From Chloroflexota bacterium (GTDB taxonomy: Bacteria > Chloroflexota > Dehalococcoidia > Lucifugimonadales > Australimonadaceae): a DNA stretch of 64,000 nucleotides. Shown here one piece after another: positions 8,778-14,904 of this stretch (positions are counted from its first letter, which is position 1; the number at the start of each line of letters is the position of its first letter). A model generated the notes under the pieces. The model had not been told where the DNA came from and searched no databases. It worked only from the letters and a program-made list of their open reading frames with translations. Both the position numbers and the translations under genes were made by a program. The stretch is taken from positions 62,001-126,000 of the forward strand of contig JAPPHT010000056.1 of the NCBI GenBank assembly GCA_028874795.1, written 5' to 3'.

Positions 8778-10010
8778 TCACCAATCTCCCCGGTGTGAAT
8801 CTTCAAGATGCGTGTCGTACGGCGCCACGCACGTTACGGTCGTTCCATGTCCCGGTCCGTCTGACCTCGCTTCAAGTCTGCCTCCCATCCGCTCAGCGTC
8901 CCTTCTCATGTTCCTGAAGCCGTGTCCACGCTGAGCGTAGTCGGGCGGAAGGCCCACGCCGTCGTCGGATATCGACATGCGCAGACTCTCCCTCCCGAAG
9001 TCCAGGCTGATGGTGACCCTGTGCGCCGACGCGTGCCGCATGGCGTTCGTCATCGCGTTGTGCGCGATCGAGAACAGCAGGCCCCGGGTCACCGCCGATA
9101 GCGGAGGCTCACTGCCGGACTGCACCACGTCCACGGGGACCGAGGTGATGGTGGTGAATGCCCCCGCGTGCGCAGCGAGTACGTCGCCGAGCCCCTGGCC
9201 GTCGAAGATGAGCCCGCTGTCTATCGGGTGTCGCAACTCCCACATGGACGCCTTCGACAGCGCGTGCGTCGCCGTGAGCCTCGCAACCTGCTCTGCGCTC
9301 GCCGATTCGGCCTCAGCTATCGCCGATTCGATACCCAACCCGATCATGTACGCGGATTGAGCAACCGTGTCATGGATGGTCCGGGAGAGCTCGATGCGCT
9401 CTCTGTGGAGCTCCCGCTCCCGTTGAACGGCCATCGCTCTCCTGAGGCGCTCGAACCTGGAGATGAGGTTGACCACTATCACCATTGCATACATCGCGGC
9501 GATCCTGGCGATCAGTACTTTCTCTTCCTTCGCGGCAAGGTCGAGCCCATCCCCTGTCACGAGCACCACCACGCTGTACAGGACGGCTGCCATGGTCACC
9601 CACGCGAAACTGGTCCTGAAGGAGGCGAACGCCACGGCGAACATGGCGAGAGCCGGGTAGTACAGCAGGTAGCACAGCGTCTCCAGCCCCCCGCCGACGG
9701 CGGCGCCTCCCGTGATCAGGGCCATGTCCATCGCACTGAGCGAGAGCAGGCATTGCCAGGTCACGCTCCTGCCGCTGCGCACCAGGAACTGGACGTAGCC
9801 GTTGAAGCACATGGCAAGCAGGGCGAGCAGGATGAAGGAAGCGTGGATGGGAAGCGTGTAGTCGGGGCGATAGGCCAGCAGCGCCAGAGCGACCACGAGG
9901 ATGCACCAACGCACCCATACGGAGATCGCGGCTGCGTAGCGCAGACCTTCGGGGTCCGTCCACTCCTGAATACCGAGGCGTTGCGGTGAGAGTTCGGTAT
10001 ACGCGTTCAT
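8778..10010 (-). CDS. NarL-type sensor histidine kinase with multi-span membrane sensor
   Basis: HisKA_3/HPK7-type kinase of 410 residues. Residues 25-185 hold about six membrane helices without an obvious extracellular sensor domain, so the signal may be sensed in the membrane. A short coiled segment leads to the phospho-accepting His213 (ELSRTIHDTVAQS). The HATPase part shows NAMTNAMRHASA, DDGVGLPPDY and GHGFRNMRRDAERMGG. The start at 10010 is chosen because the upstream frame (to 10154) covers a repeat-rich regulatory stretch. The response regulator gene follows directly; the pair forms one operon. Confidence 0.9.
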   Translation of the reverse strand: MNAYTELSPQRLGIQEWTDPEGLRYAAAISVWVRWCILVVALALLAYRPDYTLPIHASFILLALLAMCFNGYVQFLVRSGRSVTWQCLLSLSAMDMALITGGAAVGGGLETLCYLLYYPALAMFAVAFASFRTSFAWVTMAAVLYSVVVLVTGDGLDLAAKEEKVLIARIAAMYAMVIVVNLISRFERLRRAMAVQRERELHRERIELSRTIHDTVAQSAYMIGLGIESAIAEAESASAEQVARLTATHALSKASMWELRHPIDSGLIFDGQGLGDVLAAHAGAFTTITSVPVDVVQSGSEPPLSAVTRGLLFSIAHNAMTNAMRHASAHRVTISLDFGRESLRMSISDDGVGLPPDYAQRGHGFRNMRRDAERMGGRLEARSDGPGHGTTVTCVAPYDTHLEDSHRGDW

Positions 10011-10068: not shown

Positions 10069-10156
10069 TGATACAGGAGCACAGGGACATTGATACATAC
10101 AAATGAAGATACCAATACAGAGGGAAAGGCACAGTGATACAGAAACGCAGACACTC
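10069..10156 (-). promoter_or_regulatory. Phased 22-bp direct repeats upstream of the two-component operon
   Basis: The pentamer ATACA (TGTAT on the minus strand) recurs at 10071, 10093, 10115 and 10137, exactly 22 bp apart; three copies share the longer TGATACA. A spacing of two helical turns puts all copies on one face of the DNA. The array starts about 60 bp upstream of the kinase start codon. It is likely a binding array for a regulator, possibly the NarL-type regulator of the same operon. Confidence 0.5.
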
Positions 10157-10203
10157 ATGCCAACGAGGAGCCGGGACTCTCGTCTCGCGGCGGGACAGCG
10201 GTG

Positions 10204-10893
10204 CTAGCCCGCCTGCTCTCCCAGCAGCAACGGCCTGACCTCCGACACGTGGCCCACGTGATGGTCCGGCGGTCCGACGCCGTCCGGCCACGACTGCCCG
10301 TTCGACACCCACGCGGTCGAGAGTCCGATGTCCTTCGCGCCGACCATGTCCGCCGCAACGTCGTCCCCGACGAACAGCACGTTCCGTCCCGGGGGCAGCC
10401 CCAGGCAGTCGAGCGCCAGCCGGAAGATCGCGGGATCAGGCTTCCGGCAGCCCGCTTCGTCCGAGACGATGACACACCCGGTGAGCCCCTCCAACCCGCG
10501 TGACCTGATCGTCATGTGCTGCCCCGACGACGGTCCGTTGGTGACGATGCCCCACGGCACGCCTGCCGCGTTCAGGTCACGCAGTAGGGGAAGCACCTTG
10601 GGGTCCGGCGGCAGCACCGAGCGCGACGCCTGCAGATACCAGTTCGACAGCTCATCGTGCGGCAGCCCGATGCCCGGCCACTCCTCGAGCGTACGGGCGA
10701 TGAGCCGCTCCCTCCCCGCCAGGCCTCTTTCGTCGAATGCTGCGAACTTCGCTTCAGCCTCATCGACGGTCGCGGCGGCGCGCACGACGGGATACGTCTC
10801 GTGCAACAGCCGGCCGGTCGCACGTATCGCGGCGTCGCGGTCCCAGAGCGTGTTGTCGAGATCGAAGAGCGCTGCAGTGTACAGAGGTGGCAT
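10204..10893 (-). CDS. HAD-superfamily hydrolase (phosphoglycolate phosphatase-like)
   Basis: HAD phosphatase of 229 residues. Motif I is FDLDNTLWD, motif II IVTNGP, motif III the Lys in GCRKPDPAIF, and motif IV VGDDVAADMVGAK, so all catalytic parts are present. The ATG at 10893 follows GGAGA. It is the last gene of a minus-strand operon (Nudix, HAD, HAD) that lies behind a TPP riboswitch. The substrate is unknown; a thiamin-phosphate or thiamin-precursor phosphate is suggested only by the riboswitch. Confidence 0.9.
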   Translation of the reverse strand: MPPLYTAALFDLDNTLWDRDAAIRATGRLLHETYPVVRAAATVDEAEAKFAAFDERGLAGRERLIARTLEEWPGIGLPHDELSNWYLQASRSVLPPDPKVLPLLRDLNAAGVPWGIVTNGPSSGQHMTIRSRGLEGLTGCVIVSDEAGCRKPDPAIFRLALDCLGLPPGRNVLFVGDDVAADMVGAKDIGLSTAWVSNGQSWPDGVGPPDHHVGHVSEVRPLLLGEQAG

Positions 10894-10912
10894 CAGGGGT
10901 CTCCTCGATCCA

Positions 10913-11578
10913 CTACGCCTGCGCTCCGTCGATCCCCAGCAGCGCCGGGAGCGAGGCCATGTCAGCGAACCGTTCAACTCTCCTCGCGTGGGCGACATCG
11001 CTGGTCGGGCTGGCCGCGTACGCCAGTACCCTCATCCCAGCCGCCAGGGCCGCCTGTACCCCTGCGTCACTGTCCTCGATGACGACGCAATCCGACGGAG
11101 AGAACCCCATCGTCTCGGCGGCGTGGAGAAACACGTCGGGATGGGGCTTGCCCCGCGCCACGAGTGCAGCGCTGAACAGCCGCCCCTCGAACCAGGGGTG
11201 CAGGCCGGTGAGCTTCAACCGCTGCTCTATCGCGCGCGGCGAGGCGTTCGAACCGACGCAGACCGCCATCCCCGAGCCAACAACCGCGCGTACGGCATCG
11301 GCGACGCCCGGGACTGCGCGGAGTCCATCCTCCACCGCTACCCGTTCGGCTTCCTCGAAACGGTCCACAAGGTCGTCCGGCAACAGGACGCCCCAGTGCG
11401 CCAGCACCGTATCGTGGACCTGATCGTTGGAGACGCCGTGAAAGCGCGCCTGTATCTCGTCCAGGTCCAGGTTCAGGCCGTAGTGCGCGAGAACGTCTCT
11501 CATCGCCCGGCTGGTCAGGGGTTCGCTGTCGACCAGCACGCCGTCACAATCGAATATCACCAGTCTGGGGGGATTCAT
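10913..11578 (-). CDS. HAD-superfamily hydrolase (beta-phosphoglucomutase/phosphatase-like)
   Basis: HAD protein of 221 residues. Motif I is FDCDGVLVDSEP, a form common to beta-phosphoglucomutase-like phosphatases. Motif II is VGSNAS, motif III the Lys in RGKPHPDVF, motif IV VIEDSDAGVQAALAAGM. The ATG at 11578 overlaps the stop of the Nudix gene by four bases (ATGA), so the two are coupled. It lies 19 nt ahead of the second HAD gene. Control by the upstream TPP riboswitch suggests a role in thiamin phosphate chemistry; this is inference. Confidence 0.9.
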   Translation of the reverse strand: MNPPRLVIFDCDGVLVDSEPLTSRAMRDVLAHYGLNLDLDEIQARFHGVSNDQVHDTVLAHWGVLLPDDLVDRFEEAERVAVEDGLRAVPGVADAVRAVVGSGMAVCVGSNASPRAIEQRLKLTGLHPWFEGRLFSAALVARGKPHPDVFLHAAETMGFSPSDCVVIEDSDAGVQAALAAGMRVLAYAASPTSDVAHARRVERFADMASLPALLGIDGAQA

Positions 11579-11991
11579 TGCGCCCATGGTCCTTGCACAC
11601 GCATCGCGATCTCGATGAGCTGAGGCATCGTCGCGCTTGCCAGTTCCAGACGCGGCAGGTCGCTGCAGCCCACCCAAGCAACTTCGGAGTGCTCATGCTC
11701 TTGCAGGTTGTGGGGGGTCCCAATCCATCGCGTAACTCGGAAGAAATGAACAGGCAACTCCTCCACGTTGACATCGGGGCGGCGCAGGTCGAAGTACTGA
11801 GTCGGCACGATGCCTAACTCCTCACTCAACTCTCTCGTCAGAGTCTCCTCAGGCTCCTCTCCGGCTTCACCATGGCCACCGGGAAAGTCCCATACCCCAG
11901 GGTAGAGTTCCCTCGCCAGAGAACGCTTCACCAAGAGCACGCGATCCCCTTCAAGGAGAATGCCTAGAGCAACGAACCGATTCGTGACCAT
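11575..11991 (-). CDS. Nudix hydrolase, first gene behind a TPP riboswitch
   Basis: Nudix hydrolase of 138 residues with a complete Nudix box, from GGHGEAGEE to RELSEELGI. It would cleave a diphosphate bond. The start codon lies about 80 nt downstream of the TPP riboswitch aptamer on the same strand and follows a GGAG/AGAGG-type ribosome-binding site. It is the first gene of the Nudix-HAD-HAD operon. Nudix enzymes acting on thiamin diphosphate, its damaged analogues or HMP diphosphate are known, which fits the riboswitch, but the substrate is not visible in the sequence. Confidence 0.92.
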   Translation of the reverse strand: MVTNRFVALGILLEGDRVLLVKRSLARELYPGVWDFPGGHGEAGEEPEETLTRELSEELGIVPTQYFDLRRPDVNVEELPVHFFRVTRWIGTPHNLQEHEHSEVAWVGCSDLPRLELASATMPQLIEIAMRVQGPWAQ

Positions 11992-12040
11992 ACGTAAACC
12001 TCTACTCCGCCGACACCAGGCCCAATGCGATACTCCCGTT

Positions 12041-12060
12041 AACCAGGAACCACTCCGCTG
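12041..12060 (-). terminator. Possible expression-platform hairpin of the TPP riboswitch (extends to about 12069)
   Basis: On the minus strand CCACTCC and GGAGTGG (between about 12069 and 12050) form a perfect 7-bp stem around CTCAGC, followed by TTCCTGG rather than a clean U tract. The aptamer 3' end contains GAGGGA, which can pair with TCCCTC in this stem. The two structures would be mutually exclusive, as in a transcriptional on/off switch. The mechanism is inferred. Confidence 0.4.
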
Positions 12061-12071
12061 AGGGAGTGGTC

Positions 12072-12171
12072 TTGACTTATCCCTCCGCTGGCATTACCCA
12101 GATCAGGTTGCCGGTCGCTCCGTAACGCGGAGCCTCTAAGCCGGGCCACACCCAGCTCCCGGTATGTATGT
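12072..12171 (-). promoter_or_regulatory. TPP (THI-box) riboswitch
   Basis: Read on the minus strand, the region holds the conserved core ACCTGATCTGGGTAATGCCA followed by GCGGAGGGA, which matches the TPP riboswitch signature with one change. The 5' half has CGGGAGC and GCTTAGAG, corresponding to the GGGGnGC and CTGAGA elements, and a variable stem between them. A weak P1 (ACATA with TAAGT) can close it. It lies directly upstream of the Nudix-HAD-HAD operon and downstream of the acetyltransferase gene. TPP binding normally lowers expression of the genes behind it. Confidence 0.93.
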
Positions 12172-12254
12172 TCTTGGAGATGAGTTTAGCAGGTCGCGTA
12201 GGACTCGGCCACCATTGCAAAGAGGGCCAAGACACTGTCAGACCTTCAGCGGCC

Positions 12255-12848
12255 TCAGAGCAGCGGCACGTGGGGCGCCGCGGTCCTGGGCAGCAGGCCG
12301 GTCGCCCTCGGGTCGTCCGTAACCTCGATCTGCCTGCGGAACGGCACGAACCCGGACCGGATGTAGAAGTCCAGCGCGCGTGGGTGGTCGAGCGAGCACG
12401 TGTGCACCCACAACCTCCGGATGGTGCGCGTCCAGGCGAGCTCAAGCACCCGATTCATCATCCAACGCCCGGCTCCCTTGCCGACCATCGCCGGGGTCAG
12501 CCCGAAGAAGCTGATCTCACACTCGTCCTCGTTTCGGAAGTCGAGTTCCACCACGCCTTCCGCCTGCCCTTCCGCCTCGAACACATAGGCTTCATAGAGC
12601 GGGTCGCCGAGTACGTCCCGGAGCTCGTCGTCGCTCATCAGAAGGCGTGACGTCCACAGCCAGTCCTCGCCTATCCGTCTGAACAGGGTGCGGTACCGGT
12701 CAGGAGCGGACGGGTCGACCTTTCGGAGGTTCCACGAACTCTCCGAGCGTTCGGCGCGCTCCTGCGGGCGCTCGAACATCTGCAGGTGTGTGACGACCGA
12801 GGCGGTCTTGCCGGCGGGGACGTCGCTGTGGCCGTCAGGAATCTCCAT
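12255..12848 (-). CDS. GNAT-family N-acetyltransferase
   Basis: Acetyl-CoA-dependent acyltransferase of 197 residues. The GNAT core is visible as EGVVELDFRNEDECEISFFG, then the acetyl-CoA pyrophosphate loop in MVGKGAGRWMMNRV, then LDHPRALDFYIRSGFVPFR at the C-terminus. The ATG at 12848 directly follows a leftover of an inositol-phosphate synthase gene end (12851-12882). Its stop is about 80 nt ahead of the TPP riboswitch. The acceptor substrate is unknown. Confidence 0.88.
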   Translation of the reverse strand: MEIPDGHSDVPAGKTASVVTHLQMFERPQERAERSESSWNLRKVDPSAPDRYRTLFRRIGEDWLWTSRLLMSDDELRDVLGDPLYEAYVFEAEGQAEGVVELDFRNEDECEISFFGLTPAMVGKGAGRWMMNRVLELAWTRTIRRLWVHTCSLDHPRALDFYIRSGFVPFRRQIEVTDDPRATGLLPRTAAPHVPLL

Positions 12849-12850
12849 CT

Positions 12851-12882
12851 CTAGTCCTGGTGGTAGTACTCCAGGCCGAGGT
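12851..12882 (-). repeat. Copy of the 3' end of the inositol-phosphate synthase gene
   Basis: A 32-bp segment matches 13381-13412 with one mismatch. It encodes the same last residues (LGLEYYHQD and stop) on the minus strand. A faint further match (ETWRW against NTLRW) suggests a decayed paralogous gene end rather than chance. The two copies are direct repeats flanking the small membrane protein gene. Confidence 0.7.
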
Positions 12883-12919
12883 CGCTGGTTCCCGTCCACC
12901 GCCACGTTTCCGCGGCCCA

Positions 12920-13264
12920 CTACCCTCCGCCGCTCAGCATGAGAACCATCAATGGCCAGAGTAACACAGAGAGGATGCCCTCTAAGCTGAACAGATTGCC
13001 GACCCACCTGTCGGAGTCCCAAAAGAAGTTGATCGGACCGCCCCAGTAAGCTGGAACAATCAAGAATGCGAGAATGAGGTACGCGCTTGATGAGACGAGG
13101 GCTCCGGTCGGAACGAGGACTCTATTCCATCTCCAGCCACGCCGCATGCATACGGGAGCGAGTAACGCGAAAGACATCCCAGTCCACGCAGCAAACATCG
13201 AAAGGCCGAAGACCGGTCCCCCGAAGTTCCGTGCAAAGAATCCGTATGTCCAAAACTCATCCAT
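12920..13264 (-). CDS. Small integral membrane protein of unknown function
   Basis: A 114-residue protein with about four hydrophobic segments, including FGLSMFAAWTGMSFALLAPV, LVPTGALVSSSAYLILAFLI and LEGILSVLLWPLMVLMLSG. I do not recognise a family. ATG at 13264 gives the shortest sensible product; an in-frame ATG at 13339 would add 25 polar residues. It sits between two direct copies of the 3' end of the neighbouring synthase gene, so the stretch could have been inserted or duplicated as a unit. Codon use is slightly less G+C-rich than its neighbours. Confidence 0.6.
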   Translation of the reverse strand: MDEFWTYGFFARNFGGPVFGLSMFAAWTGMSFALLAPVCMRRGWRWNRVLVPTGALVSSSAYLILAFLIVPAYWGGPINFFWDSDRWVGNLFSLEGILSVLLWPLMVLMLSGGG

Positions 13265-13380
13265 GAGGTAAGGCTGTCCTGGCCCTCTTGAGGCTACACT
13301 CGTCGTGACCCCCGGCGGGCCAGGCGTGGCACCAGTCATCTTGTCGGCCCGGTCGGCCGTGCCGGGATCCCACCCGCCTG

Positions 13381-14904
13381 CTAGTCCTGGTGGTAGTACT
13401 CGAGGCCGAGGTGGGTGATCTGCTCCTCGCCCATCATCCAGCGCAGGGTGTTCTTCAGCTTCGTCTGCTGGATGAACAGGTCGTGCTCCGGGTAGAGGTT
13501 CCGCGCGTGGTGCGGGCTCTTGAAGTAGAACGACAGCCACTCCTGGATGCCCGACATTCCCGCCCTCCGCGCCAGGTCCATGAAGAGGACGAGGTCCAAC
13601 ACGATGGGCGCCGCGAGGATGGAGTCCGAGCAGAGGAAGTCGATCTTCATCTGCATGGGATGCCGCAGCCACCCGAACAGGTCGACGTTGTCCCAGCCCT
13701 CCTTCGCGTCCCCGCGCGGCGGGTAGTAGTTGATGCGCACCTTGTGATAGACGTCGCCGTAGAGGTTCGGATACATATCCGGCTGCAGGATGTGCTCCAG
13801 CACGCCGAGCTTCGACTCCTCCTTCGTGCGGAAGTTTTCCGGCTCGTCGAGCACTTCACCGTCGCGGTTGCCGAGGATGTTGGTGGAGAACCAGCCGTTC
13901 AGCCCCAGCATGCGCGCCTTCAGCATCGGGCCGATGACGGTCTTCACCAGCGTCTGGCCGGTCTTGAAGTCCTTGCCGCAGATGGGCACGCCCCTGTCTC
14001 GCGCGAGCCGTTCGAGCGCCGGTATGTCCACCGTCAGGTTCGGCGCGCCGTTGATGTACGGCACGCCTTCCTGCAGCGCGGCGTAGGCATAGATCATCGA
14101 CGGCGCGATGTTGGGGTCGCTCGAGTGCAGCGCGGAGACGAAGCTCTCGATGTCCTGGTGTATCTCTTCCTCGGTAATGAATTTCTCGGTGGACGCGCAC
14201 CAGATCATCACCAGCCTGTCACAGCCGTTCTCCTCCTTGAACCGGCGCATGTCCTCCCTGATCGTCTCGACCGCATCGAGCTTGCTGCCGACCTGCTTGA
14301 CGTTCGTACCGTTGATGCGCTTGGCGTAGTCCTGGTCGAACACCGCGGGCATCGGTTCGATCGCCCTGAGGTAGTCCGCGATCGGCTCGATCTCTTCGTA
14401 ACGGTCGAGCACGCCTGCCCGGAGCGCGGCCTCGTAGGCGTTGTCCGGTATCGGGTCCCACGCGCCGAAGACCAGTTGGTCGAGCTCTGCGAGCGGCACG
14501 AACTCCTTGATGAGCGGCGCCCGGCTGTCGGTCCGCCTGCCGAGCCGGATCGTCGCCATCTGCGTGAGCGACCCGACCGGCTCGCCGGAGCCGCGCCGTA
14601 TGTGCTCGACGCCTGCGATGACGGTCGACGAGACCGCCCCTAGCCCCACCATCAGGACCCCGAGCTTGCCGTCCGCCGGCTCGACGCCGTCCACGGTCGA
14701 CTCCATGAAGTCGCTTGGGTCGAGCGCGATGCCCCGTCTCCGGGCGAGGTCCATGAGCGTCCCATGCCACTGGGCGGGGATCCTTCCCGTCCTGGCCCAG
14801 TGCTGCACGGTGCTCTGGCGTCTGCCCAGCAGGCCCGCCAGCGCGGACTGCCCTCCGAAGCGTTCGATGATCTGCTTTGCGGTGTTGTGCTGTTGTGTGC
14901 TCAT
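13381..14904 (-). CDS. Myo-inositol-1-phosphate synthase with N-terminal helix-turn-helix domain
   Basis: NAD-dependent synthase of 507 residues that would convert glucose 6-phosphate to inositol 3-phosphate (equals 1L-myo-inositol 1-phosphate). Residues from about 78 on show the Rossmann start GVLMVGLGAVSSTVIAGVEHI, and later GKDFKTGQTLVKTVIGPML with family-typical lysines, followed by NILGNRDG and FLCSDSILAAPIVLDLV. Residues 8-60 (IIERFGGQSALAGLLGRRQS, then TVQHWARTGRIPAQW) look like a Cro/YdaS-type helix-turn-helix, an unusual addition to this enzyme. Inositol phosphate would feed phosphatidylinositol or compatible-solute synthesis. A strong promoter lies just upstream. Confidence 0.9.
   Translation of the reverse strand: MSTQQHNTAKQIIERFGGQSALAGLLGRRQSTVQHWARTGRIPAQWHGTLMDLARRRGIALDPSDFMESTVDGVEPADGKLGVLMVGLGAVSSTVIAGVEHIRRGSGEPVGSLTQMATIRLGRRTDSRAPLIKEFVPLAELDQLVFGAWDPIPDNAYEAALRAGVLDRYEEIEPIADYLRAIEPMPAVFDQDYAKRINGTNVKQVGSKLDAVETIREDMRRFKEENGCDRLVMIWCASTEKFITEEEIHQDIESFVSALHSSDPNIAPSMIYAYAALQEGVPYINGAPNLTVDIPALERLARDRGVPICGKDFKTGQTLVKTVIGPMLKARMLGLNGWFSTNILGNRDGEVLDEPENFRTKEESKLGVLEHILQPDMYPNLYGDVYHKVRINYYPPRGDAKEGWDNVDLFGWLRHPMQMKIDFLCSDSILAAPIVLDLVLFMDLARRAGMSGIQEWLSFYFKSPHHARNLYPEHDLFIQQTKLKNTLRWMMGEEQITHLGLEYYHQD

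Follow-up and report, generated by a model that had tools for sequence, protein, structure and literature searches.

Background

Nudix hydrolases and HAD phosphatases have been linked to thiamin. The thiaminase I operon of Paenibacillus thiaminolyticus, which is led by a thiamin pyrophosphate (TPP) riboswitch, holds thiM-thiD-thiE and, among further genes, the Nudix-HAD gene YzgD and a HAD gene (PMC5627462). Thiamin-linked Nudix enzymes cited in PMC5389931 and PMC5627462 include NudJ/YmfB (Lawhorn 2004), which hydrolyzes hydroxymethylpyrimidine diphosphate (HMP-PP), and an oxothiamin diphosphatase of the Tnr3 type (Goyer 2013), and thiamin monophosphate (TMP) phosphatases of HAD subfamily IA are attributed there to organisms that have thiamin pyrophosphokinase (TPK) in place of ThiL (Hasnain 2016, via PMC5627462). 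Here, we analyzed a 64,000-nt stretch of a Chloroflexota genome (contig JAPPHT010000056.1, assembly GCA_028874795.1; hereafter the window), in which an aptamer of the TPP riboswitch family (RF00059) is followed on the minus strand by a Nudix gene and two HAD genes, designated HAD1 and HAD2.

The ligand pocket of the TPP aptamer is well described. According to a review of crystal structures, the aminopyrimidine is sandwiched by G42 and A43 and forms hydrogen bonds to G40 and G19 (PMC7824784). Nucleotides U39-A43 are among the highly conserved positions of the aptamer (PMC3764141), and conservation of the motif was also reported in PMC9544697; one of these two papers describes predicted TPP aptamers that show no thiamin response.

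Comparison of the locus with its relatives points, with about even confidence on our part, to a thiamin-regulated Nudix cassette that lies in a variable slot and is intact in a congeneric genome (G004), with a switch that is probably impaired in the window and with HAD1 and HAD2 as neighbors that have a history of their own.

Results and discussion

Identification and conservation of the riboswitch

The minus-strand order in the window is aptamer (12063-12172), Nudix gene (11575-11991), HAD1 (10913-11578) and HAD2 (10204-10893). A preliminary description had claimed a TPP aptamer on this strand and had proposed Infernal with the RF00059 model as a check; the search bore the claim out, with a full-length match (1-105) of 56.2 bits, over the gathering score of 54.3 (E = 2.6e-8 for a search of the window). 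The RF00059 alignment contains the P2-P5 architecture, including P4/P5, and the GCG pyrophosphate pocket. The copy in G004 scored 46 bits, under the gathering score (E 4.9e-6).

Only 3 of the 83 positions of the aptamer core differ between the window and G004, versus 31 of 91 in the upstream spacer (binomial P 1.3e-11). The aptamer has been under strong purifying selection, and the riboswitch is, judged by its sequence, real by descent. The Nudix proteins of the two genomes are 81% identical, with a dN/dS of about 0.13, and the low rates in both aptamer and gene suggest that both were maintained for most of the divergence between window and G004.

A base change in the ligand pocket

One of the three core differences lies in the J3/2 motif, which reads CUGAGA in G004 and CUUAGA in the window, a G-to-U change at 12138 (minus strand). 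In our alignment this base corresponds to position 40 of E. coli thiM. The other two differences appear mild from the alignments: C/U at 12143 turns a stem pair from G-C to G-U, and A/G at 12109 falls within a junction. The preliminary description had called the core nearly canonical, which holds for the full-length match, the GCG pocket and P4/P5 but overlooked the change at 12138.

The motif was then compared across the order, of which 250 genomes were surveyed, 236 of them with RF00059 matches at E 1e-7. All of the other 101 matched loci kept CUGAGA. Of 11 additional loci checked with a second pattern, 10 had it as well; in the eleventh (L111) this pattern gave no match, and no aptamer was seen to lack the G apart from that of the window. 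Accordingly, TPP binding by the window aptamer may be poor, its ligand may be a different one, or the changed base may be an error of the consensus. Descent from RF00059 stands, although ligand binding is not to be assumed from it, and a covariance score over the threshold is no proof of such binding, as the window copy outscores its sister with the canonical pocket.

If base 12138 were an assembly or sequencing error, the riboswitch would be canonical and TPP-responsive like the G004 copy. This is an unlikely explanation in our estimate: it is favored by the fact that a single change in a metagenome-assembled genome (MAG) is concerned, in a core that is otherwise canonical and that has the G in G004, whereas the terminator tail of the window copy, described below, is changed as well. 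Less probable still is an altered specificity, in which the G40U change would have yielded a TPP-type variant responsive to another compound, perhaps a thiamin diphosphate that is damaged or an analogue, which the MutT-like Nudix enzyme would destroy. Variant classes of other riboswitches have been recognized by just such a combination of a change at a ligand-contacting pocket base and an unusual gene under control (e.g. PMC9295807, PMC10853860); however, the variant is represented by one sequence only, the same gene is found under a canonical pocket in G004, and the terminator tail has decayed too.

Whichever explanation applies, the two genomes offer a natural pair of aptamers that are identical at 80 of 83 core positions and differ at a universally conserved, ligand-contacting base, and thus a clean test case for riboswitch decay or specificity change.

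Expression platform

A hairpin 3' of the aptamer (12049-12070, minus strand), ACCACUCC-CUCAGC-GGAGUGGU, may be the relic of an intrinsic terminator or a weak one. Its energy is -12.8 kcal/mol, versus -17.6 kcal/mol for the hairpin of G004, and the tail that follows, UCCUGGUU, has U at 4 of 8 positions, versus 6 of 8 in the G004 tail, UUUUGGUU. A generic scan of the window region detected no terminator-like site and no sigma-70 promoter.

The 3' strand of the P4 region, GAGGGA (12085-12080), is complementary to TCCCTC (12065-12060; UCCCUC in the transcript) in the hairpin. Their pairing would compete with both P4 and the hairpin, which is the behavior expected of an antiterminator, and GAGGGA is a candidate antiterminator strand. 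The preliminary description had offered this pairing as the switching mechanism. The complementarity is present; however, a 6-bp complementarity of this kind was reached in 34% of shuffles, so it is not evidence by itself and was dropped as a proof of switching.

Genes downstream of TPP riboswitches in the order

For about 100 riboswitch loci of the order, the orientation was set and the genes that follow were classified. The first genes encoded ThiXYZ-type ABC transporters, SSS symporters, ThiG, ThiB, ThiC, ThiD or TenA; at a single locus the product was a TonB-type receptor. A Nudix or HAD gene followed the riboswitch only in the window and in G004. A rare non-classical gene thus joins the TPP regulon of this Chloroflexota order, in which nearly all other examined TPP riboswitches precede transport or synthesis genes. 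The single receptor case (L117; G031:C36), in which a TPP riboswitch stands right before a gene resembling those of TonB-dependent receptors, is unexpected in Chloroflexota, since receptors of this type are proteins of the outer membrane, and contamination is possible.

Gene order at the locus in related genomes

The locus of the window genome (G000) was compared with those of G001-G004. It is bordered on the left by a conserved gene for a myo-inositol-1-phosphate synthase-like protein (INO1; 13381-14904, minus strand), with 92-96% identity in G001-G004, and on the right, after HAD2, by a conserved gene with Pfam matches to histidine kinases (8778-10010, minus strand). A GNAT acetyltransferase gene assigned by Pfam (12255-12695, minus strand), also found in G003 and G004, is the upstream neighbor of the riboswitch.

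In G004 the order is INO1-GNAT-riboswitch-ORF55-HADx-Nudix-HAD1-MFS, where HADx is a divergent HAD-IA protein. In G003 it is INO1-GNAT-HAD1-HAD2-kinase, and in G001 and G002 it is INO1, another open reading frame (ORF), HAD1, HAD2 and kinase; these three genomes have neither riboswitch nor Nudix gene at the locus. The cargo between INO1 and HAD1 (window 11992-13380; L174, L175, L055 and L016; G000-G004) comprises GNAT, here its first gene, riboswitch-Nudix, HADx, a nucleotidyltransferase-like ORF and a small ORF. These varied orders indicate that the place between INO1 and HAD1 is a variable slot and that HAD1-HAD2-kinase is a resident block. The G004 order, together with the presence of HAD1-HAD2 without the riboswitch in three genomes, further indicates that the transferable unit is the riboswitch plus Nudix, with or without another HAD gene.

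When G005 served as outgroup in a tree of SSS, TenA, ThiD and ThiG, the earliest branch was G004, followed by G000 and then by G001-G003. By parsimony, a single gain of riboswitch-Nudix and a later single loss in the ancestor of G001-G003 would suffice. Displacement of the riboswitch from thiG was considered as a possible origin; the aptamers of the thiG group, however, are not clearly the nearest to that of the window.

The survey for conservation of riboswitch and Nudix-HAD-HAD suggested in the preliminary description therefore gave a divided answer: riboswitch and Nudix occur together in one congener, and Nudix-HAD-HAD is not a conserved unit. The direct succession of riboswitch and Nudix, on whose conservation that proposal had been staked beforehand, is not kept, with ORF55 and HADx standing between them in G004.

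Three further features of the region were recorded. ORF55 (L016 2620-2784, plus strand), directly after the G004 riboswitch, has 55 codons, a good ribosome-binding site and no family match. At its N terminus, the INO1-like protein has a carph-isopro domain (NF046037; 63.4 bits against a cut-off of 38), which also resembles YdaS-type DNA-binding proteins. The interval between HAD2 and the histidine kinase contains, at window 10080-10160 (minus strand), repeated TGTATCA-like motifs within an unusual pyrimidine-rich stretch, possibly regulator sites.

The HAD genes

The preliminary description had reported a Nudix gene and two HAD genes in tight coupling, which was confirmed by the superfamily assignments in Pfam, by the ATGA overlap between the HAD1 start and the Nudix stop and by the 19-nt gap between HAD1 and HAD2, the ATG of which is at 10893. 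Both HAD proteins matched the Pfam HAD Hydrolase family (2.9e-27 for HAD1 and 2.1e-22 for HAD2) and were assigned to subfamily IA, HAD1 by TIGR01509 (71.2 bits, cut-off 29.4) and HAD2 by TIGR01549 (63 bits, cut-off 23.3). The nearest models were beta-phosphoglucomutase-like proteins and 6-phosphogluconate phosphatase for HAD1, under the equivalog cut-offs, and TIGR02253 and YjjG types for HAD2, so that both resemble HADs of the sugar-phosphate or nucleotidase type. No NCBIfam equivalog cut-off was reached by Nudix, HAD1 or HAD2.

Orthologues of HAD1 and of HAD2 (80-85% for HAD2) occupy the same locus without a riboswitch in G001, G002 and G003. The G004 locus also has HAD1 and lacks HAD2, and no close HAD1 was found in G005. 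Since HAD1-HAD2 is resident without riboswitch or Nudix in three congeners, Nudix-HAD-HAD does not appear to be a dedicated set, and a dedicated operon of the three genes was rejected on these grounds. The HAD1 identities, 71% for G002/G003 versus 80-82% for G000/G001/G004, disagree with the core-gene tree, which suggests that HAD1 may have been replaced via recombination at the locus.

Thiamin metabolism of the genus

The source genome, 90 contigs that add up to 3.33 Mb, contains a second TPP riboswitch in addition to that of the window; this other copy (70.7 bits) precedes an SSS-family symporter gene followed by TenA and ThiD. Thiamin gene inventories were obtained by family searches over six genomes of the genus. 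ThiE was detected in all six and ThiL over the cut-off in five and partially in the sixth; TPK (PF04263) and ThiC were detected in none of the six, and thiK and thiM were not searched for. Altogether, the genus shows ThiE, ThiG, ThiL, TenA and ThiD without ThiC or TPK, the pattern of a hydroxymethylpyrimidine auxotroph, with the SSS transporter as the main riboswitch-controlled gene. No TPP riboswitch was detectable at the thiG-thiE operons of the genus (L169, L171, L172 and L173), and those of G009 and G010, from another genus of the family, have one.

The inventory indicates that the genus makes the thiazole and TMP, needs imported pyrimidine and obtains TPP via ThiL. As neither TPK nor ThiC was detected, it would be a waste to break TPP down to free thiamin. 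Furthermore, a conventional OFF switch would cause the enzymes to be made when TPP is scarce, which argues against TPP as their substrate. The inventory and this regulatory logic together argue that TPP itself is unlikely to be the substrate. The presence of ThiL, the absence of TPK and the occurrence of HAD1/HAD2 at a locus without thiamin genes in relatives likewise disfavor a role of either HAD as a TMP phosphatase.

These results bear on the proposal of the preliminary description, in which an intact TPP riboswitch drives a dedicated Nudix-HAD-HAD set whose enzymes would hydrolyze TPP, diphosphates of its precursors or damaged analogues stepwise to the free compound for salvage or repair. 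The RF00059 score over the cut-off, the tight spacing of the three genes and the thiamin-linked Nudix and HAD precedents, among them the Paenibacillus riboswitch operon that holds both (PMC5627462), speak for it. Nevertheless, we regard it as improbable, because three genomes have HAD1-HAD2 at the locus but neither riboswitch nor Nudix there, HAD2 is missing from the G004 locus, no TPK that could reuse free thiamin is detectable, the OFF-switch logic disfavors TPP as substrate, and the pocket guanine is lost in the window. Stepwise hydrolysis of TPP down to free thiamin is a poor fit as well.

The Nudix enzyme

The Nudix gene encodes a protein of 138 aa with a PF00293 match (2.3e-21) and, in its translation, a complete Nudix box, GHGEAGEEPEETLTRELSEELGI, which fits GX5EX7REUXEEXGU. 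The closest solved relatives are MutT, NudG (a CTP pyrophosphohydrolase) and MutT2, and E. coli NudJ, the HMP-PP hydrolase (3SHD), was not among the 60 best matches shown at E 0.01. A NudJ- or Tnr3-type enzyme is therefore unsupported by sequence. The best NCBIfam profile was PRK08999, at 76.7 of 245 bits, presumably a family of Nudix-ThiE fusions, which we treat as a lead only.

When the Nudix profile was run over the order, strong matches were obtained only in the window genome and G004, the next best being 40-45% identical. These next-best relatives were not near riboswitches detected in their genomes, and five of them had no thiamin genes nearby with the queries used; a tie of Nudix relatives to thiamin genes elsewhere was thus not borne out. 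In the flank of one of these relatives (L058), a distant homologue of HADx and a weak match to ABC proteins were seen.

It is possible, though we give it clearly less weight than the regulated cassette, that the Nudix enzyme is an ordinary MutT/NudG-like nucleotide cleaner that came to lie behind the riboswitch by recombination in the variable slot and has a function unrelated to thiamin. The kinship to MutT, NudG and MutT2 rather than NudJ agrees with this, as do the unrelated cargo that the slot carries in relatives and the classical thiamin genes, or in one case the TonB-type receptor, behind the other surveyed riboswitches of the order. Against it stand the strong purifying selection on the aptamer alongside Nudix in two diverged genomes and, as a lead, the PRK08999 profile.

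Proposed model

In the interpretation that we prefer, the riboswitch and the Nudix gene would form a small regulated cassette in the variable slot between INO1 and the resident HAD1-HAD2-kinase block. The G004 cassette, riboswitch-ORF55-HADx-Nudix, looks intact, its ligand pocket being canonical and its terminator hairpin followed by a U-rich tail, and its switch would act as an OFF switch that shuts the genes when TPP is plentiful. In the window genome, a probable deletion would have set Nudix beside the leader: a 34-nt stretch before the window Nudix start aligns with the 3' end of the G004 HADx gene (end-anchored P 0.003, for a short alignment picked after inspection, with a free local search not significant), which weakly suggests that HADx was deleted and Nudix thereby brought next to the leader. 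With the guanine of the pocket replaced at 12138 and the terminator U-tract largely lost, TPP control would probably be weakened or gone, and Nudix may be expressed more or less constitutively. As the conserved riboswitch suggests, the enzyme would most likely remove phosphate or pyrophosphate from an unwanted di- or triphosphate connected with the supply of thiamin, for instance HMP-PP or a damaged or analogue form of TPP. HAD1 and HAD2 would be co-transcribed neighbors with an unrelated history.

Several observations count against this interpretation, in addition to the limits of the HADx alignment. The change at 12138 is one consensus base of a MAG and could be an error. Several SSS riboswitches of the genus are likewise U-poor in the tail, so the weak window tail is only suggestive and need not mean loss. 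HAD1 and HAD2 probably still share a transcript with Nudix, and their secondary recruitment is possible.

Comparison with known systems

The window aptamer is like other TPP riboswitches (THI element, RF00059) in its full-length match, P2-P5, GCG pyrophosphate pocket and downstream hairpin, and unlike them in having CUUAGA in place of the universal CUGAGA, Nudix as the first gene and a weak terminator tail. The HMP-PP riboswitch (thiS motif; PMC6478431) likewise senses a diphosphate of the thiamin pathway, but it is a distinct aptamer, and the window element matches RF00059 only.

NudJ and Tnr3 share with the window enzyme a genetic link between a Nudix hydrolase and thiamin, whereas the window Nudix is closest to MutT/NudG by sequence. 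The TMP phosphatases resemble the window HADs in belonging to subfamily IA, the latter in a transcript with a TPP-class aptamer at its head; in contrast to their hosts, the window genus carries ThiL but lacks a detectable TPK, and in relatives neither HAD1 nor HAD2 is associated with thiamin. In the Paenibacillus thiaminolyticus operon, too, a single TPP riboswitch precedes both Nudix and HAD-IA genes, but there a Nudix-HAD fusion lies amid thiamin genes, while the window operon has no thiamin gene and its HADs are resident. Taken with the thiamin-linked Nudix and HAD precedents, the YzgD operon (PMC5627462) makes the window locus a variant of something already known.

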